Shown here piece by piece: positions 3,713 to 34,033 of a DNA stretch of 64,000 bases. The notes beneath the pieces were generated by a model. It searched no databases. It was not told where the DNA came from and saw only the letters and a list, made by a program, of their open reading frames with translations. The position numbers and the translations under genes were made by a program. Source of the stretch: Clostridiaceae bacterium Marseille-Q4143 (GTDB lineage Bacteria; Bacillota; Clostridia; Lachnospirales; Lachnospiraceae); contig CP073693.1 in the NCBI GenBank assembly GCA_018228645.1, positions 2,366,416 through 2,430,415 of the forward strand, in the 5' to 3' direction. Each line of letters begins with the position of its first letter. The stretch's first letter is position 1.

Positions 3713-3840
3713 GACCGCCTGAGTGCACAGCGGTTCCGCAATGCGCCCAGGCGGTCGGCAATTCTTTTACTTCTGCACTCCCTGTAGGTCGCCCTACCAC
3801 AGACTGTGTCTGCTTTTCCGCCAGTCGTGCAGTTCCTTTC
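3713..3840 (-). promoter_or_regulatory. ZTP riboswitch (pfl motif) with terminator
   Basis: Read on the minus strand, the leader holds CTGCACGACTGGCGGAA, then GGAGTGCAG closing P1 (CTGCAC/GTGCAG), and after a linker CCGCCTGGGC (3745-3754). GACUGGCG and CCGCCUGGGC are the two conserved blocks of the ZTP/ZMP aptamer that form its pseudoknot. The second block is also the 5' arm of a 9-bp hairpin (3748-3756 with 3713-3721), so ligand binding would compete with terminator formation. Z-nucleotides build up when 10-formyl-THF is short, which fits control of the AICAR transformylase and IMP cyclohydrolase genes. Confidence 0.9.
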
Positions 3841-13764: not shown

Positions 13765-13869
13765 AAAAAATACACCTCCATAGATGAAATGCAGGGGTGA
13801 AGGAACCAGTCCTTCGCTGAATGATAAGTGACTCATAAATAATATCTTTCAGGCACCACATCTGAGATG

Positions 13870-13978
13870 TATCCTCATATGTAGCAACGGGTGCGAATCA
13901 GACACCGTAAGCCTTTGGGCTTTTCGTCCCGTGACAACTCCCCATCCACGGGCACTTAACGCGTAAGATTCTACTTCG
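13870..13978 (-). promoter_or_regulatory. Tetrahydrofolate (THF) riboswitch
   Basis: On the minus strand the leader contains GTAGAATC, then GCGTTAAGTG, GGATGGGGAGTTGTC, a variable hairpin (AAGCCCAAAGGCTT), CGGTG and the closing GATTC with GCTAC. The GCGUUAAGUG and GGGAxGUxG blocks are hallmarks of the folT-type THF aptamer. It lies between the isomerase stop (14009) and folT, and should repress folT when reduced folate is plentiful. Confidence 0.88.
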
Positions 13979-14008
13979 CTATTATTTACTTGTTTTTTAT
14001 TATAGCAG

Positions 14009-15887: not shown

Positions 15888-16021
15888 GATGATTACGATC
15901 TGATCTGAAAAATCATATCTGCAACATACCGTACTGCTTGTCACCTGTACAGAGGAAACGAATAAGGGAGATGATATTTCTGCATGAGAAATAAATCACC
16001 TCGCCATTTCCAATTGCGTGT

Positions 16022-16240
16022 TGTAAGTGGCAGCAGCTTCAGGCATGTATCCTGGCTTACGCAGTAACGTCCTGTCTCCCTTCTCACGAAAGTTGATTCG
16101 CAATGGTAATGAAACAGAACTGCACGTATACAGTTGCACGACAGCCCCAGATTCTCACTGGATTCCATCTTGGCTGCAGACCCGACATCCTTGTGCCGTG
16201 GTGAGCAGAACCCGAAACCGGTAATTGTTGAGTCTTATGA
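16022..16240 (-). promoter_or_regulatory. Cobalamin riboswitch (minus strand)
   Basis: The minus-strand RNA has the class landmarks in order: GGTTTCGGGTTCTG, then GGAATCCAGTGAGAATCTGG followed by GGCTGTCGTGCAACTGTA, and finally the B12 box AGCCAGGATACATGCC near 16042-16060. No conserved gene lies between it and the LRR gene at 15839, so that gene and the TIM-barrel gene behind it are the presumed targets. Confidence 0.9.
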
Positions 16241-16252
16241 AATTTTGCTACT

Positions 16253-16281
16253 AGTATAGTTGAAATATTCGTGAAAAACAA
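16253..16281 (-). promoter_or_regulatory. Promoter for the minus-strand cobalamin leader
   Basis: TTGTTT (16276-16281), 17-nt spacer, TATACT (16253-16258) on the minus strand. Confidence 0.6.
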
Positions 16282-16331
16282 CTTCCAAAATGGAATACCT
16301 CTTTAAAAATTGTGGAATTTGCATAAAGTGG

Positions 16332-16360
16332 TTGACAAAAAGAAACAATACGTCTATAGT
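16332..16360 (+). promoter_or_regulatory. Promoter of the corrinoid operon
   Basis: TTGACA (16332-16337), 17-nt spacer, TATAGT (16355-16360). It starts transcription just before the first plus-strand cobalamin aptamer. Confidence 0.8.
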
Positions 16361-16374
16361 TCTTGTTAGAAACA

Positions 16375-16608
16375 TCACAAAGATATTTCGGAAGATATAT
16401 AAGAAGCAGGTACTGCTTCAGGAAGTCCGGTGAGATTCCGGCACAGTTTATCCCTACTGTAATGATCTACGAAAGCTGCAGTGAACCATTTGCCTTGAAG
16501 GAGGCTGAGAAGGGCGGCGAGTAGGCAGAAAGATCGAGTCAGGATACGATATCGGAAGAAACTATAAGAAGAGCTATCCGTAGGCATAAACGGAGGTCTG
16601 TTTTTTTT
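16375..16608 (+). promoter_or_regulatory. Cobalamin riboswitch 1 (plus strand) with terminator-like end
   Basis: Landmarks: AGTCCGGTGAGATTCCGGCACAG near 16418, then CCCTACTGTAATGA, a GAAGGAGGCTGAGAAGG segment and the B12 box GAGTCAGGATACG near 16535-16547. A short TCCGT/ACGGA hairpin (16577-16594) followed by eight T (16601-16608) follows and could terminate. The two arms of the core (CCGGTGAGATTCCGG) are perfectly paired. Confidence 0.88.
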
Positions 16609-16639
16609 GCAATTTCATACAGACAATGCGTGATAGCAG

Positions 16640-16859
16640 ATAGCTGATAACGAAAAAATTAAGAACAGATACCAGTAAAGAAATCAAAGAGCACAAGTCG
16701 GTGGAATTCCGGCACAGGAAATGTGGTACCGTAACAGTCGGAGTGCACTGGTTCGTTGGAAGAAGATAGAGGACGCAACAGACGTTCGGTTTACGCATGA
16801 GGAACACTATCAGGTAGCAGAAGATGCCCGTAAAAGGGAGCTTTTTGCTACCTTTTTTA
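16640..16859 (+). promoter_or_regulatory. Second, divergent cobalamin-riboswitch-like element with strong terminator
   Basis: Downstream of riboswitch 1 a second core appears: AAGTCGGTGGAATTCCGGCACAG (about 16696-16717) with a following CCGTAACAGTCGGAGTGCACTGG. The usual B12 box is not clear; CTATCAGG near 16808 is the nearest match. The element ends in a strong terminator, GGTAGCA/TGCTACC (16813-16852) with T6. This fits two aptamers in series or one decayed copy. Confidence 0.62.
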
Positions 16860-16888
16860 TTACCCATTTTCAAGGGAGGGAAAACAAA

Positions 16889-17827
16889 ATGAAAAGGAAA
16901 TGGTTAAAAAAGTCAGTCATAGCATTGATGCTGGCAACCGTACTTATGAGTACTGTCGGCTGCGGCGTTGATGATATCGGCGGTTCCGGAAGCTCCGGCA
17001 AACTGGATATTGATTATGTCGGGGAAGATGGAGAGGTCACCGAGGAAGAAGTTACTCCGGAAAGTACCGGTGTGATGGCGTGGCTGAAAGGAAAATTATC
17101 CGCTGATAAGAAACAGTCCGGCCGTCATGCAACAGAAGTCGCTTCTGCCAATAATAATACAGAAGAAGAGGAGAGTGGCTTAAGAGGTCTGTATGGACTG
17201 ACAGAGAGCGCCAATACAGAGAAGAAGAAAGAGACGGAAGCCGAACAGGAGCAGACAGTTCCAGAGCAGGAGACCGATGGAAACGATCAGAAAGCTCCAT
17301 CAAGGGAAGAAGAAAAAAAGAACGAAGCTCCTATTCCGAATTCTGGAACTGATAAGAACGAGGATAATAAGAAAAATCCGACTACAGTGAAGAAAAACAC
17401 CGTAACCTTCACCATTCGATGTGATACAGCTGTCAATAACGGCATGGACAAGGAAGCCAAATGGGCCGGCATCGTACCGTCCAGCGGATGTATCCTTCCG
17501 GTAACTACGATGGAATTTGAGGAGGGTGAAACCGTATTCGATCTTCTTTGCACGATAAGGGATACTTACAAACTGCAGATGGAATATACGGGAACCAATG
17601 GTGGTCAGTATATTCAGGGTATCAATAACCTGTATGAGTTTGACGGCGGCCGCTGGTCCGGCTGGATGTATTGTGTGAATGGCTGGTATCCCAATTATGG
17701 CTGCGGTCAGTATGTAGTGAAAAGTGGGGATGTCATCGAGTGGAATTACACCTGTGACTTAGGGTGTGATCTGGAAAATGGAGATCCCAATGGATACGGC
17801 AAAGAATGGAAAGACAATCATGACTGA
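16889..17827 (+). CDS. DUF4430 (transcobalamin C-terminal-like) lipoprotein
   Basis: A 312-aa surface lipoprotein. The signal ends in a lipobox, STVGC, so Cys25 would be lipid-anchored. Residues about 30-195 are an acidic, Lys/Glu/Asn-rich tether. Residues about 200-305 form the DUF4430 domain, homologous to the beta domain of intrinsic factor and transcobalamin: EEGETVFDLLCTIRDTY, then INNLYEFDGGRWSGWMY, then NGWYPNYGCGQY and the C-terminal DVIEWNYTCDLG. In the mammalian proteins this domain clamps one face of cobalamin. I use the ATG at 16889 with AGGGAGGG upstream; the 56 upstream codons lie in the riboswitch. First gene of the operon. Confidence 0.9.
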   Translation: MKRKWLKKSVIALMLATVLMSTVGCGVDDIGGSGSSGKLDIDYVGEDGEVTEEEVTPESTGVMAWLKGKLSADKKQSGRHATEVASANNNTEEEESGLRGLYGLTESANTEKKKETEAEQEQTVPEQETDGNDQKAPSREEEKKNEAPIPNSGTDKNEDNKKNPTTVKKNTVTFTIRCDTAVNNGMDKEAKWAGIVPSSGCILPVTTMEFEEGETVFDLLCTIRDTYKLQMEYTGTNGGQYIQGINNLYEFDGGRWSGWMYCVNGWYPNYGCGQYVVKSGDVIEWNYTCDLGCDLENGDPNGYGKEWKDNHD

Positions 17828-17856
17828 TAACTGACAGACAACAACGAGGGAATGAA

Positions 17857-18738
17857 ATGACAAAATACTTTGAACACCTTCATCCGGTGTGTATCTTCCT
17901 GTACTTTGTGCTGGTGATCGGTATGACGTTGGCCTGTATGCACCCGGTGATGCTGCTCATTTCCACAGTGGGGGCCATCCTCTTCCTGGGAATGTTGGGC
18001 GGCAGACGTAAGGTAGTGGGAATCCTGCGATTCGTAGGTCCCATGTTTCTGTTAATTGCAATCGCCAATCCATTGGTGAACCATCGAGGGGTGACACTCC
18101 TTGGAATGTTTATGGATCAGTGGATTACGCTGGAAGCTATCTGCTATGGAATCACAGCAGGACTTTCACTGGGAGCACTGATTCTGTGGTTTGCCTGTTA
18201 TCAGGAGATTATGACCAGTGATAAATTCCTTTATCTCTTTGGAAAGATAGCACCGGCAACGTCGCTTCTGATTACCATGACACTGCAGTTGATTCCCAAA
18301 CTGCAGAACCAGTTATCAGATATCCGGCAGGGGCAGGAGATGCTGCGGGAGCAGAAAAAAGGAATCATGGCGAAATTACATACAGCCATTCGCCATACAT
18401 CCACTCTGATTGGATGGAGCGTGGAAAATGCAGTGGAACAGGCAGATTCCATGAAAGCAAGAGGGTATGGTCTGAAAAGAAGGACGACCTTCCATCTGTT
18501 CCATTTTGATTCCAGAGATGCCAGATTTTTAACAGGTATTCTGATCTTGGGAGGCATGTGTATCATTGCCAGAGCTTTCGGGCATGGCACCATGGAATTC
18601 TACCCACGCATGGACGTGGTGATTACGGGGGAGAGCGGCATTTTTCTGTATTGCATCTTTGCAGTGCTTGTATGCCTGCCGACCATCCTGGAAGGCAAGG
18701 AGGCAGTAAGATGGCGTTCTTACGGATTGACAAGTTAA
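17857..18738 (+). CDS. ecfT: ECF transporter transmembrane component T
   Basis: The 293-aa EcfT couples ATP hydrolysis by EcfA to tilting of the substrate-binding S component. It has about six hydrophobic segments and the coupling-helix Ala-Arg-Gly motif in DSMKARGYGLKRRT (about residues 198-211). The start ATG at 17857 follows GAGGG. It overlaps the next gene (ecfA) by 28 nt, and lies 29 nt after the DUF4430 lipoprotein. Confidence 0.93.
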   Translation: MTKYFEHLHPVCIFLYFVLVIGMTLACMHPVMLLISTVGAILFLGMLGGRRKVVGILRFVGPMFLLIAIANPLVNHRGVTLLGMFMDQWITLEAICYGITAGLSLGALILWFACYQEIMTSDKFLYLFGKIAPATSLLITMTLQLIPKLQNQLSDIRQGQEMLREQKKGIMAKLHTAIRHTSTLIGWSVENAVEQADSMKARGYGLKRRTTFHLFHFDSRDARFLTGILILGGMCIIARAFGHGTMEFYPRMDVVITGESGIFLYCIFAVLVCLPTILEGKEAVRWRSYGLTS

Positions 18739-20375
18739 GCTTTGCTTATCCGGATGCCAGGACAAGGGCATTGGATGAGATCAGCTTTTCCATAGACAAA
18801 GGTGAATATCTGGTGGTATGCGGCGAATCCGGCTGCGGAAAGACGACTCTTCTCAGGCAGATAAAGCCGGAACTGACTCCGGCAGGAGCAAGAGAAGGAA
18901 CCGTATATTTCCATGACAAAAATGTACACGGGATGTCGCCGGAAGAGACCGCGGTAAAGATTGGATTTGTCCAACAGGACCCGGACAATCAGATTGTGAC
19001 GGATTTTGTCTGGCACGAGCTGGCTTTTGGCCTTGAAAATATGGCGCTTTCCACCTCCGCGATCCGACGCAGGGTCAGCGAGATGGCGAGCTTCTTCGGC
19101 ATGGAGGACTGGTTCCATAAGAAAACTTACGAACTGTCCGGCGGACAGAAGCAGATGCTCAATCTGGCATCCATTATGGCCATGAATCCGGAACTTCTGG
19201 TTCTGGATGAGCCAACCAGTATGCTGGACCCGCTGGCATCTCAGAATCTCTTGCAGATGGTTTCCCGGATTAACCGGGAATTGGGAGTGGCAGTGATCAT
19301 CTGCGAGCATCGTCTGGAAGAAGTCTTTCAGACTGCAGATCGAGTCCTGCTCATGGAGAAAGGACAGATACAGCTTCTGGATACTCCGCAATGGGTGGCA
19401 GAGGAATTATCAAGAAATCTGACAGATTCATCAAAGAACATATCAAGAATCTATCCGGGGTTACCCGGGGCAGTCCGAATCTTCAGTGGACTGAGACAGG
19501 AGGGGTTGTATCCGACGGAGGAGAAGACCCCCATCAGCATCCGGGAGGCAAGAAATGCGCTTCCGAAATTGCTTGAAAATACTCATATTCATATACTTCC
19601 CGATAAAAAGATTCCGACGAAGGAATCGCAGAAACACAAGACGGTGCTGGAAGCAAGGGAGCTCTGGTTCCGATATCAGGAAAAAAGTCCCGATGTATTA
19701 AGAGGATTATCCTTATCCGTCGGGGAAGGGGAACTGACCGCCCTGCTGGGCGGGAATGGTTCCGGCAAAAGCACCTTGTTAAAACTACTCTCAGGTGTCT
19801 CCAAACCCCTGAGAGGAAAAGTCAAAATGGAAAAAAGCAGACGACTGGCCATGCTGCCCCAGAGCCCCAAAGCGCTCTTTACCACAGATACCCTGTGGGA
19901 AGACCTTATGGACAGCGCGGATGGAAATGAGGAAAAGGCAAAGACCATGGCGGCAAGGATGAACCTGTCGGACAAGATTTATGCCCATCCCTATGATTTA
20001 AGTGGTGGAGAGCTGCAAAGAGCAGCCATTGGAAAACTCTTATTAAGAGATGCAGATATTCTTCTGCTCGACGAACCCACCAAGGGACTGGATGCAGGTC
20101 TCAAAGGAGATCTGGCAGGGTATCTGAAAGAACTCTGCAGGGAGGGCATTTCCATCTTACTGGTCACCCATGATCTGGAATTCGCCGCGGCCTATGCCGA
20201 CCGGTGTGCGTTGCTCTTTGACGGACAGATCGTATCAGAGGAAGAACCGCATGCTTTCTTTAGCGGTAACCGGTTCTATACCACCTCTGCCGGACTTATT
20301 GCAGGTGACTGCATTCCGGAAGCCATTACCTGCGAGGAGGTGATTGCTGCATGCAGAAAAGCGGCGTCTTCGTAA
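18711..20375 (+). CDS. ecfA: ECF transporter ATPase, fused double EcfA
   Basis: This 554-aa protein contains two ABC ATPase domains, the equivalent of EcfA1 and EcfA2 in one chain. Domain 1 has Walker A GESGCGKT (about 34-41), ELSGGQKQ and Walker B LLVLDEP. Domain 2 has GGNGSGKS (about 347-354), DLSGGELQ and ILLLDEP. A linker of about 90 residues separates them. The ATG at 18711 has AAGGAGG upstream, inside ecfT. It energises the ECF complex of this operon. Confidence 0.94.
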   Translation: MAFLRIDKLSFAYPDARTRALDEISFSIDKGEYLVVCGESGCGKTTLLRQIKPELTPAGAREGTVYFHDKNVHGMSPEETAVKIGFVQQDPDNQIVTDFVWHELAFGLENMALSTSAIRRRVSEMASFFGMEDWFHKKTYELSGGQKQMLNLASIMAMNPELLVLDEPTSMLDPLASQNLLQMVSRINRELGVAVIICEHRLEEVFQTADRVLLMEKGQIQLLDTPQWVAEELSRNLTDSSKNISRIYPGLPGAVRIFSGLRQEGLYPTEEKTPISIREARNALPKLLENTHIHILPDKKIPTKESQKHKTVLEARELWFRYQEKSPDVLRGLSLSVGEGELTALLGGNGSGKSTLLKLLSGVSKPLRGKVKMEKSRRLAMLPQSPKALFTTDTLWEDLMDSADGNEEKAKTMAARMNLSDKIYAHPYDLSGGELQRAAIGKLLLRDADILLLDEPTKGLDAGLKGDLAGYLKELCREGISILLVTHDLEFAAAYADRCALLFDGQIVSEEEPHAFFSGNRFYTTSAGLIAGDCIPEAITCEEVIAACRKAASS

Positions 20376-21235
20376 GCAGGCGGACAAAGATGGCGGCAGC
20401 CATCATCACGTTGGTACTTCCGGTATTATTACTGGCCTATGCATGGTTCATGAACCACCGTCCGGCACTCCATATCAAGTCCGAGTGGACTTTCCGGGAT
20501 ACTTTATTACAGAACAGTGATGTGATGCTGGCTTTTTTGTTTTTGCTTGTATCGGCACTGCCCTTCTATCTGGTCTTTGACCGGAAGAGAGGCCCTGACG
20601 GACATCGGGCGCAGGCAAGGGAACTGGTTCCCATTGCATTGATGGCAGCCCTGTGCGTGGTGGGAAGAACTGCATTTGCCTTGATTCCCTTACCGAACTT
20701 TAAGCCAGTCAGTGCCATCATCATTATCACAGCGGCAGCCTTCGGACCGGAGGCCGGATATCTCACCGGAGCGTTGGCAGGATTCGTCAGTAACTTCCTG
20801 TTTGGACAGGGACCATGGACTCCGTGGCAGATGTTCTGCTGGGGCTGCATCGGATTTGTGGCGGGACTTCTTACCAGAGCCGGAGCATTCGGCCCCATCG
20901 GACGGGAACTTCCGCAGAAGAATGGAAGGAGAAAGCGTCCCATCCGCCTGTGCATCTACGGACTGGCATCCGGATTTGCTTATGGGTGGGTGATGAACCT
21001 CTTCTACATCATCGGTTATGTCAGACCCCTGACCTGGCAGACCGTGGCAGCCGCCTATGTATCCAGCTTTTTCTTCGATCTGAGTCATGGCATCTGCACC
21101 ATGCTGGTGCTGTACTTCGTGGGGGAAGCATGGATTCGGAAATTATTACGGATTAAACGAAAATTCGGACTGACAGGGGAAGAACGATCCTATGTGATGC
21201 CTCCGGGCAGACATGAGGAGGAAGGAACACTATGA
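20351..21235 (+). CDS. ECF transporter S component, CbrT-like (probable cobalamin/corrinoid)
   Basis: The 294-aa membrane protein has an N-terminal extension with two hydrophobic segments (about 12-30 and 55-75) and an S-component core (about 88-270). The core segment NFLFGQGPWTPWQMFCWGCIGF is typical of S components of the CbrT/HmpT-like group. It overlaps ecfA by 25 nt (GAGGAGG precedes the ATG at 20351). The cobalamin riboswitches and the DUF4430 neighbour point to corrinoid as substrate; the sequence alone does not prove this. Confidence 0.82.
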   Translation: MQKSGVFVSRRTKMAAAIITLVLPVLLLAYAWFMNHRPALHIKSEWTFRDTLLQNSDVMLAFLFLLVSALPFYLVFDRKRGPDGHRAQARELVPIALMAALCVVGRTAFALIPLPNFKPVSAIIIITAAAFGPEAGYLTGALAGFVSNFLFGQGPWTPWQMFCWGCIGFVAGLLTRAGAFGPIGRELPQKNGRRKRPIRLCIYGLASGFAYGWVMNLFYIIGYVRPLTWQTVAAAYVSSFFFDLSHGICTMLVLYFVGEAWIRKLLRIKRKFGLTGEERSYVMPPGRHEEEGTL

Positions 21236-21933
21236 AACCAATCATCGAAACAAGACAGGCAGAGAAGCTTTATCAGGTAGGAGATTCCACCATCCATGCA
21301 GTGGATGGGATTAACCTGCAGGTAGAAAAAGGAGAGTTCCTCTGCATCAGCGGACGGAGTGGTTCCGGTAAATCAACTCTTCTAAGCCTGCTGGCGGGAC
21401 TGGAAAGCCCCACAGCCGGGGAGATTGAGATTCTGGGGCAGCATCTGGAACAGCTGAATGAAAAAGAACGGAGCCGTTTCCGACGGGCACACATCGGATT
21501 CGTGTTCCAGTCCTACAACCTGCTTCCTCAGTTCAGCGCTTGGGAGAATGTGGCCATGCCCCTGCAGATCCGGGGAATCTCACTAAAAGAACGAAAAGAA
21601 CGTGCCATGGAGATATTAGATCTGGTAGGACTCCGGGATCACGCCTTACATAAACCAACAGAGCTGTCCGGTGGACAGCAGCAGCGGATCGGCATTGCCC
21701 GCGCCATTGTAACGGGCCCGGCCATCGTCTTCGCAGACGAGCCAACCGGAAACCTGGATTCCAGAACCGGACAGGAAGTGATGGAACTCCTGGGACGGAT
21801 ATTCCGGAAATGGGGAACGACTTTTATCTTAGTAAGTCATGATGAGGAAATGTACCGCTATACAGACCGGGAGATCCGGTTAAAGGACGGAAAGATCGAA
21901 CAGCAAACATTACGGGAGGAAAGAATGTTATGA
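21232..21933 (+). CDS. MacB/LolD-type ABC transporter ATP-binding protein
   Basis: The 233-aa ATPase has Walker A GRSGSGKST (about residues 40-48), Q-loop VFQSYNLLPQFSAWENV, signature LSGGQQQRIGIARA and Walker B IVFADEPTGNLDS. This is the MacB/LolD/FtsE-like family, which drives mechanical work by FtsX-type permeases and not import. Its start overlaps the S-component stop and its stop overlaps the next start as ATGA, so it is translationally coupled on both sides. The partner permease is at 24037-25719. Confidence 0.93.
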   Translation: MKPIIETRQAEKLYQVGDSTIHAVDGINLQVEKGEFLCISGRSGSGKSTLLSLLAGLESPTAGEIEILGQHLEQLNEKERSRFRRAHIGFVFQSYNLLPQFSAWENVAMPLQIRGISLKERKERAMEILDLVGLRDHALHKPTELSGGQQQRIGIARAIVTGPAIVFADEPTGNLDSRTGQEVMELLGRIFRKWGTTFILVSHDEEMYRYTDREIRLKDGKIEQQTLREERML

Positions 21934-24044
21934 ATATGAAGAAACGATTACTGATTCTGTCCCTGTCCCTCTGTCTGGGACTCGGAGGCAGCCTGACCGC
22001 CTATGCGGAAGAGGCCAACCCTCCGGCGGCAGAAAGTACAGAAAATGCAGAGACCGCAGTCCAGACGGAAAGTGCACCGGCGGCAGAGGCAGCATCCGCA
22101 GCGGAAAATGCAGAAAGTACACCTGCTGCAGAAAACACACAGACAGAAGCCGCACCAGCGACGCAAGCAGCTACTGACGATACTGCAAAGGCAGCCAATA
22201 CCACCACGACCGATGATGGCAAGAAAGACGGAAACAGCAATACCGTTACCACGGAAAAGCCGAACACAGATATTAAGGTGACTCCGAGTAATGCCAATGC
22301 CCTGATCCTCATGGACGCAGGTGCACAGTCTCCGAAAGCAGCTCCGGGACAGACTGTAGAAGTAGTTCTTCCGCTGGCAGTCAACAGAGAATATCTGCCG
22401 AGTGAAAAATACCTGCTCCGCAATATTACCATCCGTCTGGACATCCCGAAGGATTCCACGAAAGATACCTGGCCATTTAATGTAGTGGATGCTTCTTCCA
22501 CCAAACATCTGGATGACATGAGTTATAACAGCACTGCAGAAGTATGGTACAAGCTCACCGTCTCCGAGTTCGCCAAAGAGGGCGTGTATCCGGTGAACTT
22601 CACTGTGAATGCCACCGTATGGAGAGAAGACAGCGTTAATGGAACCGATGTACAGGAAGATGTTACCTTCTCTATGAATGTCTTCATGACCGTTGTGGGT
22701 AACGGAAATATGTCCGGTGTTACCAGTGCCATCAGCCCGCTTGAGATTGCAGGAAGAGAAGACCATGCCATTGCATCACCCACCGGAAAACCGGGTGAGA
22801 CCGTGGTTATGAGTATTCCCATCGTCAATAAAGGACAGACCCTTACCAACGTGACCGTAGCACCGGTTGTCACCGGAGATTTGGAGACCTTCCCCTTCGT
22901 GACCACCGATATCAACTATGGCAGAGAGTTGGGCACCATGGAAAATGGCACCCGCCAGACCGTTGACTGGCCCATGACGATCTCTCCTTACGCCACTACC
23001 GGAAATAAAGTCGTTACCTTCCGTGCTACTTACGAAGAAAATGGTGTTTACGGTGAGTGTACCTTCAATGCTTATGTCTATGTCAAAGATGGCTGGGTAC
23101 AGGAATCTGCTCCGTCCCTCATGGTAGAGAGTTATGGCCTCTACGTGGATGACGAGGAAGTGCAGACCGTAGAAGCCGGAAAAGACGTTGTCCTGAAGCT
23201 GAAACTGAAAAATAACGCAGCAAAAGATATTATCTACAAAACCGTAGCAACCCTGAAACTGGCAGATGCCAATTCTCTGATTCTGACCAGCGGTTATTCC
23301 GATGCAGCCTATGTCCGCAGCATTTCGGCAGGACAGACCACGGATATTGAGTACCATATCACCGCAAGGGCATCCGCTTCCGTAGGACCCAGCGCCGCAA
23401 CTATTACGCTGGCCTATGAAAATCAGGATGTAGTCCAGGGAAGTGCCACTTCCACCATCCAGATCCCTATTAAGCAGCCCATGAACCTGCAGCTGGATAC
23501 CCCGGTGGTCTATGGCACTCCGGTACAGGGCGAGCCGGTGGCAGTATCCCTGAACATGGTCAATCTGGGACGTTCCCGTGCTTACAATGTGAGCATTGTA
23601 GCCATGAACGGCATCAGCATGCAGGATGCTTACTTTGGAGGAGATATCCTCGCGGCAGGAAACTTGAATGCAGATATCCAGATCATTCCGAACAAATCCG
23701 GCCAGTACGCAGGAACCCTTGTCGTACAGTATGAAGACGCAGATGGTGAGCAGTACACCCAGAACGTCAATGTAGACCTGGACACGGCTCCGGCGGTAGA
23801 TGAGACTGCTGTACAGGCCGACAGTGAAAATGTGGAAGTACAGAAGAAGGGCGGACTGCCCTGGTGGCTGGTCACTTTCCTGATCCTGCTCATTATTATC
23901 TGTGCCCTGCTGGCATGGTACTTCCTCGTATATAAGAAAAAGCAGGAAGCACAGGCTGAAGGAGCGCCGGAAGAAAAAGCACAGGCAGACAAAGATCAGG
24001 ACGAAATTCAGATCATTAATTTAGAGGATGAAGACAATGAATAA
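21930..24044 (+). CDS. Membrane-anchored extracellular protein with NEW3/S-layer-like Ig domains
   Basis: A 704-aa secreted protein with a signal peptide (cleavage probably after SLTAYA, residue 26), an Ala/Glu/Thr-rich stalk (27-110), then several beta-sandwich units of the NEW3/COG1361 kind (PGQTVEVVLPLAVN; GKPGETVVMSIPIVNKGQTLTNVTV; VNLGRSRAYNVSI). The C terminus has one membrane helix (about 645-668, WWLVTFLILLIIICALLAWYF) and an acidic cytoplasmic tail. It sits between the ATPase and the permease. By analogy with MacAB-type systems it may be an accessory that links the permease to surface partners; this is inference. Confidence 0.78.
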   Translation: MNMKKRLLILSLSLCLGLGGSLTAYAEEANPPAAESTENAETAVQTESAPAAEAASAAENAESTPAAENTQTEAAPATQAATDDTAKAANTTTTDDGKKDGNSNTVTTEKPNTDIKVTPSNANALILMDAGAQSPKAAPGQTVEVVLPLAVNREYLPSEKYLLRNITIRLDIPKDSTKDTWPFNVVDASSTKHLDDMSYNSTAEVWYKLTVSEFAKEGVYPVNFTVNATVWREDSVNGTDVQEDVTFSMNVFMTVVGNGNMSGVTSAISPLEIAGREDHAIASPTGKPGETVVMSIPIVNKGQTLTNVTVAPVVTGDLETFPFVTTDINYGRELGTMENGTRQTVDWPMTISPYATTGNKVVTFRATYEENGVYGECTFNAYVYVKDGWVQESAPSLMVESYGLYVDDEEVQTVEAGKDVVLKLKLKNNAAKDIIYKTVATLKLADANSLILTSGYSDAAYVRSISAGQTTDIEYHITARASASVGPSAATITLAYENQDVVQGSATSTIQIPIKQPMNLQLDTPVVYGTPVQGEPVAVSLNMVNLGRSRAYNVSIVAMNGISMQDAYFGGDILAAGNLNADIQIIPNKSGQYAGTLVVQYEDADGEQYTQNVNVDLDTAPAVDETAVQADSENVEVQKKGGLPWWLVTFLILLIIICALLAWYFLVYKKKQEAQAEGAPEEKAQADKDQDEIQIINLEDEDNE

Positions 24045-25719: not shown

Positions 25720-25725
25720 AGGAGT

Positions 25726-26223
25726 GTGTCAGATATGAAAAAGAAGACAACACAGACGAAAATGGAGAAACGGTTCTTCCTGCTTATCGTTATCCTGGCT
25801 CTTATTGCCATCGGTGTAGTGGCCTATGGAGTGGGAACAAACCTGACAGGTGGAAACCATGTGAAAAATACCGACAGCGGAACGGAAGAAGAAACGGATG
25901 AAACCAGTGATTCCGGGGAAAATGATCCTCTGGCCATCCACTCCATCATCATCGGAGATACAGAAGCTTCAATTCTGCATGATACGACAGACGGCGCAGA
26001 TGATTACATCATCAAAGCAGCCCTCCCTGTGGATTTCTCCTTCGAGAAAACCACGCTGAATCTGGAACTGGCAGACGGGGCAGTAGTATCAGATAAAAGT
26101 AACTGCCTGCTTAATGATCTGGGCGGCAGGCCGGTGGTAAACCTGACTGTGGAAAATGCCAGTCTGGTCATCGCCAATGATGGAGAGACAAGAACCTATC
26201 AGTTTCAGTTGGATATTCAATAA
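25726..26223 (+). CDS. Small membrane-anchored extracellular protein
   Basis: The 165-aa protein has one N-terminal membrane segment (about residues 14-34, FFLLIVILALIAIGVVAYGVG), a Ser/Glu/Asp-rich tether (40-70), and a small beta domain (75-165) ending ENASLVIANDGETRTYQFQLDI. The domain resembles the DUF5018-like Ig modules of the next gene (polypeptide with YTVT/TYTV edge strands), so it may pair with that large protein. No enzyme motif is seen. It starts 6 nt after the permease stop. Confidence 0.65.
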   Translation: MSDMKKKTTQTKMEKRFFLLIVILALIAIGVVAYGVGTNLTGGNHVKNTDSGTEEETDETSDSGENDPLAIHSIIIGDTEASILHDTTDGADDYIIKAALPVDFSFEKTTLNLELADGAVVSDKSNCLLNDLGGRPVVNLTVENASLVIANDGETRTYQFQLDIQ

Positions 26224-26328
26224 TGGGGGTGATATATAGAGTGAATGAAAAAGCAATGATAAGAGAGGCAGGTGGTATATGATATGAGTAGAAAAATAGA
26301 AAACAGTAGAGGAGGTGAGAAAGCGAAT

Positions 26329-29300
26329 ATGAAAAAAGGGATGAAACGATTGATTCCGCTGATATTGGCAGTTGTACTATTGTTGAGTCAGACAATTACA
26401 TCGTTTGCGTTATGGGATGGAATTCGTGCCAATGGAAGCTATCGTGGGCATGAGACAATCACCAGTACGGCAACTGCTACAATTGTACAGATTCTTCAGA
26501 TGGATGAAAATGAGTCTTCTGTTATGCCTTTGAAGAGCTTTGAAGCAATTCAGGATAATAAACGCGTTTTCTTTACTCCGGTCTCTGATGCGGAGCAGGC
26601 GGATTTTTCTTCGCCTGTTCCGTATATTGTAACTTCTGAAGACGGTCGCAGGGGTCATGTCTGGCTCCTGGCCAGACCGGCTTCCACACTAGAACCGTGG
26701 ACGGAGAAGGACAAACAAGAGTGGATAGATCTGGCCCCGCGGTGGCTGGAGGTCAGAGACCGATTAATCTCTCTGCTGGATAAGCTGAATAAAGCAGTAG
26801 ATGAGAGAACAGTGGAGATTGGCGGATTGCAGACCGCATATCAGCCGATGGTATATTACCTGAGAAATTATAACTATTGGGTAATGTTGGATGGAAATGA
26901 AGTTCCAGGTTATGGAAAGGATGAAGTACTTTATACAGAGGAGACTCTGCGGGCATTGATGGAAAAAGACCTGGAAAAGTTTGATTTATGTAAGAAAAAT
27001 CTTCTGAAAGCGGATCAGACAGCCAAGCTTCTGGACTGCATAGAAGCATATTGCGATGAAATTGAAAATGATCGGATTGCTGCCCCGGAACTGACGGGAT
27101 TTCAGCTGGGAGAGTATAAGGGAATTATAGATGGAGCAACCCATGTAACTCTTACGGTTCCTGCAGATGCAAATCTTCCGGATCCGTCAGAGGCAAAGAT
27201 CAGTACGGATGGTTCTGTAAAATCCAACTTGTTTGCCGGTTCGATTGAGAGTGGACAGTTGCTGTATCGTCTGACTCCTTATGCTGCATGGACGGGTGCC
27301 GTGTACAATGGAACGGGCGGCTACGTGTTTGATAAAGACCTTGGAAAGACTTGGATTGTTGAGGTTAAAAGAGGGGATCCGGTACTGAAAGTGCAGGATT
27401 TGAGTATTACATTAGGCGAGCGTATCTATCATGCCCAGATTGATGATGAGGAACAGACCATCAGCCTCACATTGCCGATAGGGACGAATCTGACCTCTCT
27501 GACACCGGTATTGAAGCATACAGCGTCGACGGCAACGATTGGTGGAAAAGTAGAAGGAACAGCGTTGGATTTAAGCAAACCGGTGCAGGTAGAACTGATG
27601 CTGGATAAGTATAAATGTTCTTATACCTTGACAGTTCAGACGGGAGATTCCGCAGAGTGTGATATCTTATCCTATAAGATTGGGGATCAGACGGCGACCA
27701 TTAATGGAGATCAGATTACACTGACCCTTCCTTATGGAACAGATCTCTCTAAATGTACGCCGGAAATACAGATATCAGAAGATGCAAAACTGATTCAATC
27801 TCCTTCATCACTTGTCTTTAACAGAGAATTGACGTATGTGGTACAGGCGCAGAATAAGACAACAAAAACTTATAAAGTAACGCTGAAAGAGACACCGATC
27901 TCCGATGCCAACCAGATTCTTTCGTTTTCATATGGAAGTATTAAAGGAAGTATTGACCAGAATCAGGGAACAATCCGTTTGGAAGTACCCATGGGAACGA
28001 ATTTGAAGAAGTTGACGCCGAAAGTACAGGTGTCAGAGTTTGCAGAGGTATATCCGGTTTCCGGAGCGGAAGTGGATTTCAGCGGAACCAGTCCGGTAGA
28101 ATATACAGTTACGGCGCAAAATGGAGTGACAAATACCTACCGGGTAACCGTTGTTCTGGTAGACATGGGGGAGAATCCTTACAAGAACTCCATGGTCAGT
28201 CTCCGGGATAATATTATTGACAGATATGAGACCAAAGCATCGGATGACTGGGAGTGGATGAACCTTGGCTTTTATAAAGGAGTTACGCAGAAGAAGACAC
28301 CTGGTTCTTTACCAAAAGATCTGGAAAACCATGTAAGAAAAAAACTGGCGAAACTGGATACGACATCCAGTGTGGCAATGACCAATCTGGATCGTACCAT
28401 TATGATGCTGACGGCATGTGGAATTGATGCATCAAAACTGGACGCTTATACCACAGAGGATAATCCTTTTAAAAATGCAAAAGGAGAGCCGATTAAGGAT
28501 TTGACGGCATATCTCTATAATTATTCCGGATCCTACACGATCAATGGTCCCATATTTGCCCTAATTGCACTGGATATGGGTAATTATACGATTCCTAAGA
28601 ACGCAGTATGGACAAGGGATAAATTATTGGAAACCATTCTGACACATAAATATGGATCCGACGGGTTTGGCGTCGACATGGTAGGAATGCTGATGCAGTC
28701 CATTGCTCCCTATCAGAACGATCCGGTCTATGGGTCGAGAGTGAAGGCAAAGCTGGAGGAAGGCATTGATCTCTTCCTCGGAAACAAGAAGGCAGACACA
28801 GTAGATGCCATGCAGCCGGATTTCACATTCGGAGGCTTTGGCTACCAGAGCAGCGAGAGTGCGGCGCAGGCTATCTGTGCATTGAGTGCAGCTGGAGTGG
28901 ACTGTCATACAGATGCCAGATTTTCTGATGGAAACGGGAAGAGCGCACTGACGGCATTTCTGGACTATGCAGATGGAGAATATTTTGCACATACCGTAGC
29001 AGTGAAGAAGAATTCTATGGCAACTTATCAGGGATGTTATACCGTGCAGTGGTATCTTGGGTTCCTGGAGAATGGCGGGGCAGGACATCCTTATTCGCTT
29101 TACTATCATCAGCAGGATTTTTCCCGGCCGTTGAGCAAAGAAGCGGAGATTAAGAGCTTTGTACTGGAAGGAAAGACGGCGGAGATCAATGGGGATCAGA
29201 TTACCGTGACGCTTCCAAAGGGAACACCGCTTACCAATATGACGCCGGAAATTACATTGTCAGACTATGCGACCCTGGATGCACCCAGCTTCCCCGTTAC

Positions 29301-30381
29301 ATTTGCAGAAAATATAGCACAGCCGTTCACGGTACGTGCGGAGGACGGAGAGACCACAAAAACATACTATGTAACAGTAAAACTGGCAGAAGGTATTAAG
29401 GCATCCGGTACGAATCTGGATGCAGACAGTCTGAAACTGCAGGATGCAAATATCTTAAGAGATATCGAGATTACAGCGCGGAAAGTAACTACAAATGAGG
29501 CAACTACAGACATTCTTCTAAGTGTGGCAGCCGGAGTAGATACGCAGAATCTTTTCGTTAAGGGAACGCTGTCTTATGGTGCAACCACGGAGCCTGAACA
29601 GATTCTGGATGGAAAGACGAAGATAGATTTGAGCGGTTGGACGACGATCAAAGTAACATCGGAAGATAAAGAGAATGTAAGAACGTACCGGATCAAGGTG
29701 GATGCTCAGGAGACTGCATCTATAGACAGTTTTGTGGTAACCATTGATGGTATTGCATATAGGGGCGTTATTGACAACTCTGCCAATACCATTCAGGTGT
29801 TGGGAGTCCCGACGGAATCCGATGTAAGTTCCCTGGCGCCGGAGATTGAACTGGGCGAAGGAACGAATGTCTGCAGTCCTTTATCCGGCGTGGCACAGAA
29901 CTTTACATCGACGGTAAACTATACCGTATCAGGAAACGGACTGGCTACCAGAGTGTATGCAGTGGATATTTTCGATGCAGAGGGCAAGCATCCGACTGGT
30001 AAGAAGACGGATGACAATCCGGTGACGCCGGGGAAACCGGATACACCGACCATATCAGCGGCAAAGATCAATAGCTTTACTTTGCTTGGCGTGGAAGGAA
30101 CTATTGATGATGCAGCGGGAACGATCTTGATTACTTTGCCGGAAGGAACGGATGTCAGCTGTGTGGCACCGACGGTAGAAGTAGGAAGCGGATGTACGGT
30201 GAGCCCGGTTTCGGGTGAAGTCGTGGATCTGACCAGTCCCAGAGTCTATACTGTTACAAACGGAACAGAAACGAATACATATACCGTCATTGTGACGCTG
30301 GAGAAGAGTGTATCACAGCAGCTCTGGGAGAAAGTGGAAGATGACAGTACAGTAGCGGACCATCAGGTAGTCCGGGATTAG
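26329..30381 (+). CDS. Giant secreted protein: DUF5018-like Ig modules around an alpha/alpha-toroid-like domain
   Basis: A 1350-aa secreted protein; signal peptide about residues 1-28, cleavage likely after TSFA. It starts at the ATG at 26329, which has GGAGGTGA at 10 nt. Approximate layout: helical N region (110-240), Ig-like units (255-440), DUF5018-like modules at 445-520 and 530-612, an all-helical region at 620-930, then modules at 940-1020, 1130-1215 and 1245-1325. The helical part carries FTFGGFGYQSSESAAQAICALSAAG-like segments typical of alpha/alpha-toroids (terpenoid-cyclase/transcobalamin alpha domain). There is no LPXTG or C-terminal membrane helix; it ends in a short QLW...DH tail. 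Function is inferred to be corrinoid binding at the surface. Confidence 0.72.
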   Translation: MKKGMKRLIPLILAVVLLLSQTITSFALWDGIRANGSYRGHETITSTATATIVQILQMDENESSVMPLKSFEAIQDNKRVFFTPVSDAEQADFSSPVPYIVTSEDGRRGHVWLLARPASTLEPWTEKDKQEWIDLAPRWLEVRDRLISLLDKLNKAVDERTVEIGGLQTAYQPMVYYLRNYNYWVMLDGNEVPGYGKDEVLYTEETLRALMEKDLEKFDLCKKNLLKADQTAKLLDCIEAYCDEIENDRIAAPELTGFQLGEYKGIIDGATHVTLTVPADANLPDPSEAKISTDGSVKSNLFAGSIESGQLLYRLTPYAAWTGAVYNGTGGYVFDKDLGKTWIVEVKRGDPVLKVQDLSITLGERIYHAQIDDEEQTISLTLPIGTNLTSLTPVLKHTASTATIGGKVEGTALDLSKPVQVELMLDKYKCSYTLTVQTGDSAECDILSYKIGDQTATINGDQITLTLPYGTDLSKCTPEIQISEDAKLIQSPSSLVFNRELTYVVQAQNKTTKTYKVTLKETPISDANQILSFSYGSIKGSIDQNQGTIRLEVPMGTNLKKLTPKVQVSEFAEVYPVSGAEVDFSGTSPVEYTVTAQNGVTNTYRVTVVLVDMGENPYKNSMVSLRDNIIDRYETKASDDWEWMNLGFYKGVTQKKTPGSLPKDLENHVRKKLAKLDTTSSVAMTNLDRTIMMLTACGIDASKLDAYTTEDNPFKNAKGEPIKDLTAYLYNYSGSYTINGPIFALIALDMGNYTIPKNAVWTRDKLLETILTHKYGSDGFGVDMVGMLMQSIAPYQNDPVYGSRVKAKLEEGIDLFLGNKKADTVDAMQPDFTFGGFGYQSSESAAQAICALSAAGVDCHTDARFSDGNGKSALTAFLDYADGEYFAHTVAVKKNSMATYQGCYTVQWYLGFLENGGAGHPYSLYYHQQDFSRPLSKEAEIKSFVLEGKTAEINGDQITVTLPKGTPLTNMTPEITLSDYATLDAPSFPVTFAENIAQPFTVRAEDGETTKTYYVTVKLAEGIKASGTNLDADSLKLQDANILRDIEITARKVTTNEATTDILLSVAAGVDTQNLFVKGTLSYGATTEPEQILDGKTKIDLSGWTTIKVTSEDKENVRTYRIKVDAQETASIDSFVVTIDGIAYRGVIDNSANTIQVLGVPTESDVSSLAPEIELGEGTNVCSPLSGVAQNFTSTVNYTVSGNGLATRVYAVDIFDAEGKHPTGKKTDDNPVTPGKPDTPTISAAKINSFTLLGVEGTIDDAAGTILITLPEGTDVSCVAPTVEVGSGCTVSPVSGEVVDLTSPRVYTVTNGTETNTYTVIVTLEKSVSQQLWEKVEDDSTVADHQVVRD

Positions 30382-30391
30382 GAGGCAATGA

Positions 30392-33300
30392 ATGAAAAGG
30401 TGGAGAAAGAGGCTGATATTGTTCAGCCTCCTGGTTGTCGGATGTTTAATCTGGAATCTATCAGGAGTTGGGGTGAAAGCAGAAGAGGCAGTATCTGTAC
30501 CACAGATAGAACTTACAATTAAAAATGGTGAAGATATTTTTCTGGATAGAAAAAATAATGTTGTATTAGAAGCCGCTATTACGGTAGAAAACTATAAGAA
30601 CTTATCATCAAGTGATTTTGAAAAAGCAGATAAGTGGACCAATATATCGAGTGATGCGGCTTTGTTTCAAAATGGCAAAAAAAAATGTATTACTCCGGGA
30701 AAGATTGTTTTAACAATTAAAGCGGGTCAGAAATCTTCAGTACTTAATGGATCAGGTGCTACAATTTCTAAGTTGGCGCCCAATATCGCATTTACAAGTA
30801 CAAATGGAGGAACAATTAGAGCTCCCCAAAAATCTGATAATGCAGGTTCTTTGGTAAGTTTTTATGGAACTAACAAGTTTATAGTAACCTATGCGAACAG
30901 GTTGACCGGCATTGTACAATTTTTGGATTACAAAGGAGGAATATATGTTATAAATTATCCAGTGGAAATAAAGTGCAGTGATTATCTTGATCCGATTGAT
31001 GATTCGTGGAAAGATAAGGCGCTTGCTTCTGCGAATAGCAGTAAGAATTTGAATAGTTACATTGAAGCAATAAATTTATCTGATGATATAATTACAATTG
31101 CAGCATCTCGGTATAGTCAAACGGATGTTGCTACAGCAGATGTTTTTATACCTCAGTTAGCATATGGAGCAAGCATGGTTGGCGAAGATGCAACAACTAT
31201 GACCATAGGGGGCAAGGAACAAACAGTATATAATGTTAAGCAGTTTTTGGCTAAAATGAAAGATGGATATTCTTTTATGATTAAAAATGCAGAAGGCTTA
31301 ACAAAAAAATATAAAGTAATAGTTAATACACCTTGGCAGCTATCAATGGGTACAGGTACAGATGATTTTGATCCTGCGATTACCATCGATAATGTTCCTC
31401 AACAGAAAAAAACAATCGATACTGTAGCAGAAAACAGCAATATAAAAGTGGTGTTTAATGGGATACCGGCAAAAAAGAAACTGATTGGAATAAAAACAAA
31501 ACATAACACAAGGACAAGTACAGGAGCTTCTTCATGGGAAGAATATGAACTAACATATTCTATAAGTGGCAATAGCGTGGAATTTGTAATGCCACGGGAT
31601 GAGGTTGAGATCTCAGAAGTGCTTCTGGATGATGATTTTTCTACAGAACCCAGACAGATTACGGTTACTCCGGTAGTGGAGAATGGCGAAGAAACGGATT
31701 TTGCAGTCATTGAAAAGAAGGTAGATGGAGCAGAAAAGTCTACAGCCACAGAAAACCAGACCGTAACATTAACAGACAAGGGTATGTATCCTGATTATAG
31801 AAGTTTTTGCGGTTATGAGTTTGACCACTGGGAAAGTGCTTCGATTACTATTTCTGATACAGAAAAAATAAATTCAACTTTGACATTTTCCATGCCAGAT
31901 CAGGATGTGGATATAAAAGCAGTTTATAGACGAACAGGTGTCTCCATTACGGCTGGCATCAGCAATGTAATAGTCGGAAATATCAGTTTTGGAAATGCAC
32001 GTGTGGGGGTGATGTCTTCTACATCTCAAAAGAATCAGAAGATAACAGAGCTTTGCAGATCAGGAGAAACATATGATATTGATTTAGGAGGTGCTAATTT
32101 TGCTGCAAATCGATTCCTTGGATGGGTAGATAAAACAGGTGCTTCCATAGCAAAAACAGATGCAAATGGGATTCATTGGGTAGATGCAACAGATGCGAAG
32201 ACAGGAGTTGCATATTATTATCCTAAAATTACAGTATTTGATCAGACGGAATCGATGACATTCATTGCTTCTTTTGAGGCGAAGACTGCATGTACATTGA
32301 CGTTTACATCAAGTGATGAGAACAAAGGTACAGTATCAGCAAGTGTAGATGGAACCAGCATTAAATCCGGAGATAATACGATTTACGATGAGGACGTCGT
32401 AACGTTGAAAGCGAAGAAGAAGACCGGTTATAAATTTGCAGGATGGGAAGTAACCAGTCCGGCTGATGTTAGCGTTACTTTTGCAAATGCAGCCGCAGAA
32501 GAGACAACATTTACAATGCCGAAGATTACGTCTGGAAGTTTGACAATTCAGGGTGTATTTGAAGTGGATCCGGCTTATTTAAGTCCTGACTGCGAGTTAA
32601 CTAAAGTGGAACTTCTAAAGAAAGACAATGGTACTGTAGTAAAACAGGCGAACAAGAATGGAACCACGTTTACGATTAAGCTTTCTGCAAAGGATATGAG
32701 CCTGGAAGAAGCAGGAAATCTTACTGGTGGTGCGTATATGCTTCGTCTGACTTATCCAGAAACAGCAATCGCTAAGATGGATGGTGGCTTTGGTGATCGT
32801 GAGAATGGAGATGACCGTTGGCTGACTGGTATTACGAATGGAATTGGAAAAGGCGGAAAAGAGACATTTACCATTACTGCAGAGAATGGTACGAATAAGA
32901 ATACTTATACTATTGCCATTGAGTATGACGATCGCCCGACTTTGACAGCGGGCACAGTGAAGCGTGTCAGTGACACGGAAGCTAGTGTTGGATTCCGTTC
33001 AAGCAGTGCAGGAACCTATTACTGGGCAGTTGTGGATGCCGGAGAAGCGAAGCCGGATATTCCGACGAACGGTGCAGGTACTACGTTTAAGTATGCGGAT
33101 CGGGAAAATACCATTAAGTTGACCAGCCTGACAGCAGGAGCAAAAGATCTTTATATCGTTGTGAAGAATGATGATGATTCGACCAATGTGAAGATTTCTG
33201 ATGTATTGAAGATTTCTATTCCGGCTTTTGGAGGAGCGGAGACGACTTATAAAGTAAATGTGACAGGAAGTCTTCCAGGTGGTAAACTTACGGTAGATAA

Positions 33301-33904
33301 GAAAGAAGCAAAAGCAGGAGAGACAGTGACCGTAACGGTTACTCCGGATTCTGGTAAGAAAATGACGACAAACAGTTTGATCTACTCACAGTCCAGCGCT
33401 CCGTATGAGGTAGTGCATATTGATGAGAAGACAAAACAGTTTATCATGCCTGCGTATGAATTGTCTGTTTCCTGCCGTTTTGAGGATGAGAATTCTTCAA
33501 CGACGCCGGAGACAACCACCGGAAAGATCGGAGCATTTGTAGTCAATGGCGTATCCGGAACCGTGGATAACACCACAGGCACGATTACGGTAACCCTTCC
33601 CAACGGAACGGATCTTACCAGTCTTGCACCGGTGATTACCATCAGTGGAGCAAAATCCATCTCTCCGGCCAGCGGAGCAACTGTGAATCTTTCTTCACCG
33701 GTAACTTACACATTGACGTTGGAGGACGGAACAACAAAGACATATACGGTACGGGCTTACGTAGAAGGACCTTCCAAATCTGATCAGCTGTGGAATGATA
33801 TGCTGAACAATGTGGATGGCAGCCCGGATCACAGCGGATCTAAGACATGGTGGAAGAAAGCCAAGGATCTGAAGAAACATAACGATTATCCGGAATACTG
33901 GTAA
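30392..33904 (+). CDS. Large secreted protein with InlB-B-like repeats and C-terminal DUF5018-like module
   Basis: 1170 aa with a signal peptide (cleavage after VKA, residue 30). Residues 35-420 are a beta-rich region I do not recognise. InlB-B-repeat-like units lie at about 425-515, 630-725 and 950-1030 (KKKTGYKFAGWEV motif in the middle one), and a DUF5018-like module at about 1045-1125. It ends in SDQLWNDMLNNVDGSPDH plus a basic, aromatic tail, and it shares the QLW/DH feature with the preceding protein. GGAGG lies just before the ATG at 30392, 10 nt after the previous stop. There is no catalytic motif; it is probably a structural or adhesive surface protein working with the 1350-aa protein. 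Confidence 0.72.
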   Translation: MKRWRKRLILFSLLVVGCLIWNLSGVGVKAEEAVSVPQIELTIKNGEDIFLDRKNNVVLEAAITVENYKNLSSSDFEKADKWTNISSDAALFQNGKKKCITPGKIVLTIKAGQKSSVLNGSGATISKLAPNIAFTSTNGGTIRAPQKSDNAGSLVSFYGTNKFIVTYANRLTGIVQFLDYKGGIYVINYPVEIKCSDYLDPIDDSWKDKALASANSSKNLNSYIEAINLSDDIITIAASRYSQTDVATADVFIPQLAYGASMVGEDATTMTIGGKEQTVYNVKQFLAKMKDGYSFMIKNAEGLTKKYKVIVNTPWQLSMGTGTDDFDPAITIDNVPQQKKTIDTVAENSNIKVVFNGIPAKKKLIGIKTKHNTRTSTGASSWEEYELTYSISGNSVEFVMPRDEVEISEVLLDDDFSTEPRQITVTPVVENGEETDFAVIEKKVDGAEKSTATENQTVTLTDKGMYPDYRSFCGYEFDHWESASITISDTEKINSTLTFSMPDQDVDIKAVYRRTGVSITAGISNVIVGNISFGNARVGVMSSTSQKNQKITELCRSGETYDIDLGGANFAANRFLGWVDKTGASIAKTDANGIHWVDATDAKTGVAYYYPKITVFDQTESMTFIASFEAKTACTLTFTSSDENKGTVSASVDGTSIKSGDNTIYDEDVVTLKAKKKTGYKFAGWEVTSPADVSVTFANAAAEETTFTMPKITSGSLTIQGVFEVDPAYLSPDCELTKVELLKKDNGTVVKQANKNGTTFTIKLSAKDMSLEEAGNLTGGAYMLRLTYPETAIAKMDGGFGDRENGDDRWLTGITNGIGKGGKETFTITAENGTNKNTYTIAIEYDDRPTLTAGTVKRVSDTEASVGFRSSSAGTYYWAVVDAGEAKPDIPTNGAGTTFKYADRENTIKLTSLTAGAKDLYIVVKNDDDSTNVKISDVLKISIPAFGGAETTYKVNVTGSLPGGKLTVDKKEAKAGETVTVTVTPDSGKKMTTNSLIYSQSSAPYEVVHIDEKTKQFIMPAYELSVSCRFEDENSSTTPETTTGKIGAFVVNGVSGTVDNTTGTITVTLPNGTDLTSLAPVITISGAKSISPASGATVNLSSPVTYTLTLEDGTTKTYTVRAYVEGPSKSDQLWNDMLNNVDGSPDHSGSKTWWKKAKDLKKHNDYPEYW

Positions 33905-33937
33905 GAGCAGATATTATCCGGAAAGAAATGGCAGTAT

Positions 33938-33977
33938 CCAGCGGGTGCAAAAGCATCCGCTGGTGTTGTCGTCTTTA
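33938..33977 (+). terminator. Terminator-like hairpin at the end of the corrinoid operon
   Basis: CCAGCGGGTGC pairs with GCATCCGCTGG (33938-33963). The downstream U tract (TGTTGTCGTCTTT) is weak. Confidence 0.6.
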
Positions 33978-34033
33978 AACAAAGGTCCTGAAAGGAAGGA
34001 TCAGAGGGAAAGAACGGAGAAAAATAACGCCAT

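Follow-up and report, generated by a model that had tools for sequence, protein, structure and literature searches.

A putative cobamide capture-and-import operon combining intrinsic-factor-like folds, a CbrT-like importer and a MacB-type module

What is the function of a run of transporter and surface-protein genes that begins behind a cobalamin aptamer? The run occupies positions 16889-33904 of a 64,000-nucleotide stretch of contig CP073693.1 (Clostridiaceae bacterium Marseille-Q4143), hereafter the window. It comprises ten genes, all on the + strand and tightly packed, with short gaps or overlaps and a widest intergenic gap of 105 bases (5' of the gene for a 1350-aa protein). An initial annotation of this DNA had claimed such a same-direction run, and every gene it named was present. 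The host is probably Gram-positive, as relatives of the window's organism belong to the Bacillota. The locus is real, conserved and functionally coherent, and a role in B12 handling is likely. Our favoured explanation, which we hold with reasonably good confidence, is a cobamide (B12-type) capture-and-import operon, repressed by cobalamin via its leader and combining a split clamp, import by an energy-coupling factor (ECF) transporter and a MacB-type part. The split clamp is a plausible detail of this explanation, and the mechanism proposed for the second ATP-binding cassette (ABC) transporter is a more tentative one.

Gene content and predicted folds

The first gene (16889..17827, +) encodes a lipoprotein consisting of a signal peptide with Cys25, a charged linker of about 140 residues and a C-terminal DUF4430 beta-grasp domain (17381-17824; PF14478, E 1.9e-19; 70.3 bits against a cutoff of 23.8); signal peptides and membrane anchors of all surface proteins of the run were judged by eye. 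In the predicted model, the domain has the beta fold of intrinsic factor, transcobalamin and haptocorrin, so that the likeness asserted in the initial annotation was recovered computationally. Sequence comparison with solved structures gave weak signals: a profile of the domain matched haptocorrin with E 0.009 and intrinsic factor with E 0.14, that of the full lipoprotein matched low-complexity stretches, and the single domain had no credible match. Homologs of the lipoprotein numbered 1224 at E<=0.001. When window open reading frames of at least 60 aa were scanned for DUF4430, the lipoprotein was found and no second gene.

The 1350-aa secreted protein (26329..30381, +) carries repeated DUF5018 Ig-like domains (PF16410, E 1.6e-33, five stretches) and one alpha/alpha toroid domain, located in the predicted model at 28150..29148 (+), in agreement with the toroid that the initial annotation had expected in this protein; the absence of such a fold, which it had named as a refutation, was thus not observed. 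A Foldseek search with the model of the domain ranked transcobalamin/intrinsic factor first. A profile of the toroid found no match among solved structures by sequence, while the region around it had 774 homologs at E<=0.001. PF01122, the family of animal intrinsic factor and transcobalamin, gave no match over cutoff in seven genomes and was therefore dropped as a sequence test for the toroid; it was also absent from the six families listed when 15 toroid domains were searched with E values as high as 10.

Three genes encode the ECF importer: an EcfT/CbiQ-type membrane protein (17857..18738, +), whose CbiQ match (PF02361, E 0.023) lies below cutoff, a double ECF ATPase or EcfA-EcfA fusion (18711..20375, +; ABC_tran E 2.2e-55 in two stretches, and 328 bits to TIGR04520, over the cutoff of 315), and a CbrT-like S component (20351..21235, +; PF07155, E 7.5e-16). 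The best PDB match of the latter was ECF-CbrT (6fnp, E 1e-9, residues 86-271, i.e. 186 residues), followed by 4hzu with E 0.0014. A CbiO-like ATPase and a CbiQ-like protein thus stand alongside DUF4430, which is the operon arrangement of the DUF4430 clade.

The next three genes form the MacB-type module. They encode a MacB/LolD-type ABC ATPase (21232..21933, +; ABC_tran E 5.4e-37; best NCBIfam LolD with 249.7 bits, below the cutoff of 307.75), a 704-aa surface protein with signal peptide, NEW3/TRAP-beta-like (Ig-like) repeats and a C-terminal transmembrane helix (21930..24044, +), and a MacB/FtsX-type permease containing a low-complexity insert of Ser, Thr, Asn and Gly (24028..25719, +; FtsX E 1.7e-25, MacB_PCD E 1.9e-8). 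The permease matched MacB in PDB 5lil with E 3.8e-23 and the NCBIfam MacB model with 93.6 bits, far below its cutoff of 966. A small 165-aa protein with an N-terminal membrane anchor follows (25726..26223, +); it had no Pfam match and no NCBIfam match over cutoff. The product of the last gene (30392..33904, +), secreted and 1170 aa long, contains InlB B-repeat-like domains (PF18998, E 1.8e-15) and DUF5018-like domains, the latter scoring 30.5 bits to PF16410, below the cutoff of 38.2.

Ahead of the lipoprotein gene lies a cobalamin riboswitch aptamer (RF00174; 16421..16547, +; 44.6 bits against a gathering threshold of 31.5, E 5.8e-8 in 64 kb). It covers model positions 47-167, and its outer stem, as judged by eye, perhaps spans about 16394-16553. 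On its 3' side, a pattern scan detected a weak terminator-like hairpin followed by T8 (16577..16608, +; -12.1 kcal/mol for the fold of 16560-16615).

Conservation and co-occurrence in other Bacillota

Full-length toroid genes were found in a Eubacteriales metagenome-assembled genome (MAG; G001, locus L001), in Tissierella sp. P1 (G002, L002), in a rumen Bacillota MAG (G003, L003) and in four more genomes of the order of Tissierella sp. P1 (G814, G848, G888 and G903), giving eight loci with the window included. In searches of genome contigs, a 12-row toroid alignment returned three loci, and the 704-aa protein as query found no relatives. A 704-type protein and the permease lie just upstream of the toroid gene in all eight loci, and both the MacB-type ATPase and the EcfT-EcfAA-EcfS genes are present in all seven loci whose contigs extend far enough. 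Homologs of the small anchored protein occupy the corresponding position in G001 and L003. The identity of EcfT in the window is assigned through its homologs: those in the same place in two Tissierella-order genomes exceeded the CbiQ cutoff of 25 (31.8 bits in G002, 39.1 bits in G903), and that of G001, 73% identical to the window's protein, had no CbiQ match, as the window's had none over cutoff.

The initial annotation had suggested looking for the same gene order elsewhere. The gene set is indeed conserved in the loci of relatives, but the order is not always the same: the ECF genes come second in the window and in G001 and last in the five Tissierella-order loci, where a separate small toroid gene and another DUF4430 gene come before them. 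In all seven loci with upstream sequence, the first DUF4430 gene is preceded by a cobalamin aptamer, which scores 112.6-134.2 bits in the five Tissierella-order loci and 25.9 bits, below threshold, in G001 (positions on reversed contigs were derived by hand). Its presence in distant Bacillota as well argues that this gene set is more than a chance assembly.

The toroid alignment matched 14 of 392 genomes of one order (E<=1e-20; G001 alone full length), one of 393 of another (E<=1e-40) and five of 199 of a third (E<=1e-40). With so few matches, the full system is rare among species representatives. Within 591 genomes of two orders (392 + 199; the order of G003 was left out for the 704-aa protein), the toroid protein (E<=1.3e-183) and the 704-type protein (E<=1.8e-107) were detected in the same six genomes, namely G001, G002, G814, G848, G888 and G903, and in none of the 585 others. 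E values in these six ranged from 0 to 1.3e-183 for the toroid protein and from 2.6e-281 to 1.8e-107 for the 704-type protein, the best other genomes reaching 1.3e-42 and 6.6e-22, respectively; the Tissierella-order toroid search gave matches no weaker than 1e-40. The Fisher value of 1.7e-14 for this co-occurrence is overstated, because the ortholog-level cut was chosen after the gap was visible and the genomes are related. From this distribution, the MacB-type module looks tied to the system rather than being a chance neighbour.

Several peculiarities of individual copies were observed. On the G002 contig (L048, 4642-5603 and 8096-9404), the first DUF4430 gene and the permease gene are each split into two open frames, which reflects either an assembly error or a real break. 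Extra copies in G814 (L043, L044) comprise a toroid protein of 768 aa, a tandem pair of small toroids and an additional S component. In the window, the 1350-aa and 1170-aa proteins both have a C-terminal tail of the form S.S.QLW, which might serve for docking or anchoring. An LW near the C-terminal end is kept in all nine toroid-protein copies compared, and the LW tail of the 1170-type protein occurs, among seven copies, in those of the window and G001 only.

A model, its alternatives and known relatives

The model assumes that the leader stays open when cobalamin is low and that cobalamin shuts the operon off. The lipoprotein would span the wall on its linker of about 140 residues, with the toroid protein outside. 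The tethered beta-grasp domain and the toroid domain would then act as two halves of a clamp holding a corrinoid between them, as in intrinsic factor. According to the model, the CbrT-like S component would then receive the corrinoid, and the dedicated ECF module would bring it into the cell. As a fixed part of the system, the ATPase and permease of MacB type and the 704-aa protein would bring the force of ATP hydrolysis to the outer face. Their task would most likely be to move surface proteins, for example in clamp opening and release of a tightly bound ligand, and not to export. In its most specific form, the proposal is a two-motor machine, in which a MacB/LolCDE-like ABC opens a split clamp on the Gram-positive outer face and hands the ligand to a CbrT-type ECF transporter; we consider this form unlikely, and if true, it would represent an energy-driven vitamin handover at a surface without outer membrane. 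Whether the second ABC works at the cell surface at all, as the initial annotation had suggested, is uncertain, and so are the binding of corrinoid by the modelled lipoprotein and toroid proteins and the pairing of this toroid with this lipoprotein.

Several observations speak against the model as outlined. In all seven relatives, the large toroid gene directly follows a further DUF4430 gene (which in G888, G814 and G848 rests on a matching stretch of 52-54 residues), and the window is without one. Given this position, the natural partner of the toroid in relatives may be that second DUF4430 protein. Furthermore, CbiC, the one enzyme examined, is encoded in all seven relatives' genomes carrying the system. 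For this reason, scavenging by cells lacking B12 is too simple a story, and the target may be foreign cobamides or precursors. DUF5018 domains also accompany carbohydrate-acting domains or proteins elsewhere, in the portions of PMC10076258 and PMC12109409 that concern them, which leaves a polysaccharide role for the 1350-aa protein open. As for the hosts, the idea that they are B12 auxotrophs was unsupported, with CbiC in 7/7 genomes. B12-binding_2 proteins were present in six of the seven genomes with the system, G814 having none.

The occurrence of CbiC fits a narrower and compatible form of the favoured explanation, in which makers of the corrin ring take up cobinamide or a foreign cobamide. 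We regard this as a tentative possibility. ECF-CbrT (6fnp) carries cobinamide besides cobalamin, as stated in part of PMC5997447, whereas the forms sensed by the aptamer family are complete cobalamins according to the relevant part of PMC11477304; the sensed ligand need not equal the caught one. A different division of labour would have DUF4430 and the ECF transporter alone take up corrinoids, with the toroid/DUF5018 and 1170-aa proteins acting as surface-layer or adhesion proteins (polysaccharide binding, cell cohesion) that share B12 control only. Aligned by VIA, the toroid domain indeed fitted sugar epimerases best and GH105-type toroids too, solved structures related to the DUF5018 part are labelled 'putative glycoside hydrolase' or DUF4960 proteins, and the 1170-aa protein carries InlB B-repeat-like domains, to which the carbohydrate-acting neighbours of DUF5018 mentioned above can be added. 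The Foldseek ranking points the other way, as does the small toroid gene, which directly adjoins DUF4430 and EcfT in all five Tissierella-order loci, and toroid-SLBB fusions are on record in bacteria (PMC1796856, in its section 7); on this balance, we consider such a division quite improbable.

It is also rather doubtful that the MacB-type part works as a standard exporter, unconnected with B12 handling, for a small molecule, a peptide or the neighbouring surface proteins. Its ATPase and permease do resemble MacB/LolCDE, and weaker relatives of the 704-aa protein (E<=1e-10) are frequent (71 of 392 and 49 of 199 genomes, counting the six with the ortholog). Against this stand the signal peptides that the secreted partners themselves carry and the fact that ortholog-level 704-type proteins are confined, among 591 genomes, to the six that encode the toroid protein.

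Compared with known systems, the favoured capture-and-import operon has its closest precedent in Burroughs et al. 2007 (PMC1796856), whose relevant parts describe transcobalamin-like domains in bacteria, their fusions with toroids, extracellular SLBB proteins occurring in pairs and operons with CbiO/CbiQ, and propose B12 scavenging by these proteins as well as their transfer to animals. The idea, put forward as new in the initial annotation, had therefore already been predicted. Common to both are a secreted or anchored domain like the transcobalamin C-terminus, an alpha/alpha toroid, in many cases a second extracellular SLBB protein, a CbiO-like ATPase, a CbiQ-like protein and a proposed role in B12 scavenging. 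In the SLBB systems, the toroid is described as fused to the SLBB domain, whereas the halves are separate genes here; their hosts, according to the paper, usually lack key B12 enzymes, in contrast to the CbiC carriers above. The terms riboswitch, MacB and FtsX do not occur in the main text of that paper. Animal intrinsic factor, transcobalamin and haptocorrin share the toroid and beta-grasp folds of the predicted models, but combine them in a single chain, and their family PF01122 misses the toroid encoded here apart from the lipoprotein.

Similarly, ECF-CbrT of Lactobacillus delbrueckii shares the type of S component, the EcfT/CbiQ-type protein and EcfA, while the window's importer has a fused EcfAA, EcfT in the same operon, about 80 additional N-terminal residues in the S component, and surface binding proteins attached. 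The BtuG/BtuH/BtuJ and BtuB systems of Bacteroides, as far as their published descriptions go, would act alike, with capture by surface lipoproteins, delivery to a transporter and riboswitch control; BtuG, compared by description only, is a beta-propeller according to its paper, and our ten genes encode neither a BtuB-like nor any other outer membrane transporter. Unlike MacB/LolCDE, which the LolD-like ATPase and FtsX/MacB_PCD permease resemble, the module stands behind a cobalamin aptamer and shares its operon with the gene for a large surface protein, and none of the ten genes encodes a MacA-like partner. Within open-licence literature, represented mostly by titles and abstracts, we found no experimental test of bacterial transcobalamin-like proteins and no paper linking a MacB-type ABC with B12 uptake; the accessible text of the Bacteroides thetaiotaomicron BtuJ/BtuK paper (PMC12751083) did not use the terms transcobalamin, Firmicutes or Gram-positive. 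The two-machine form of the predicted bacterial B12 catchers thus seems undescribed, and the 2007 prediction seems to be still untested in that literature.

The locus offers compact, testable proteins for the 2007 prediction that bacterial relatives of intrinsic factor and transcobalamin gather B12. In it, these predicted catchers are tied to an aptamer for cobalamin as well as to a CbrT-like importer, and a second, conserved ABC module comes in addition. Little is known of how B12 is captured at Gram-positive surfaces, and it is a vitamin over which gut microbes compete; the locus also bears on the origin of the B12 carriers of animals.

Upstream region and flanking genes

The initial annotation had spoken of cobalamin-riboswitch leaders in the plural, which the aptamer searches bear out in part. 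One + strand aptamer exceeds its gathering threshold, as described; a candidate second one, resembling the class II cobalamin riboswitch AdoCbl-II (RF01689; 16681..16754, +), reached 22.1 bits and so fell below the threshold of 36.5 (E 0.023 for a search over 951 bases). A strong terminator-like hairpin with a T-run lies just 5' of the ribosome-binding site of the lipoprotein gene (16812..16858, +; -21.6 kcal/mol for the fold of 16808-16866), so that a hairpin of this kind stands behind each of the two aptamer-like stretches. The lipoprotein gene may be preceded by two cobalamin switches of different kinds in series; the leader at 16640-16875 did not fold clearly more stably than shuffled sequences (z -1.01). 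A promoter-like sequence, TTGACA-17-TATAGT (16332..16360, +), agrees with the consensus at 11 of 12 positions and is a consensus match only, sites with at least 9 of 12 matches numbering 29 within 15900-34200 against 25.4 expected. It begins at the position that the initial annotation had chosen as the start of the locus.

A stronger cobalamin aptamer (82.9 bits) is located on the opposite strand, which it serves, at 16025-16230 (-), with a hairpin (-25.2 kcal/mol) that includes the next ribosome-binding site. This aptamer precedes a gene for a BspA-type leucine-rich-repeat protein (15839-14991, -), in which inspection by eye showed no signal peptide, and, at about 14974-14009 (-), a gene for a TIM-barrel protein resembling xylose isomerase. 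These two genes are an odd pair for a B12-controlled unit. Leucine-rich-repeat proteins occur on both flanks of the operon, the other being encoded at 34034-34873 (+), and the two are 40% identical over 252 residues. Further along, a tetrahydrofolate riboswitch (13883-13980, -; 81.2 bits) precedes the gene for a folate-family ECF S component (13210-13836, -; TIGR04518 over cutoff), the two making up an ordinary folT unit, and a ZMP/ZTP riboswitch was detected at 3738-3838 (-; 52.7 bits).

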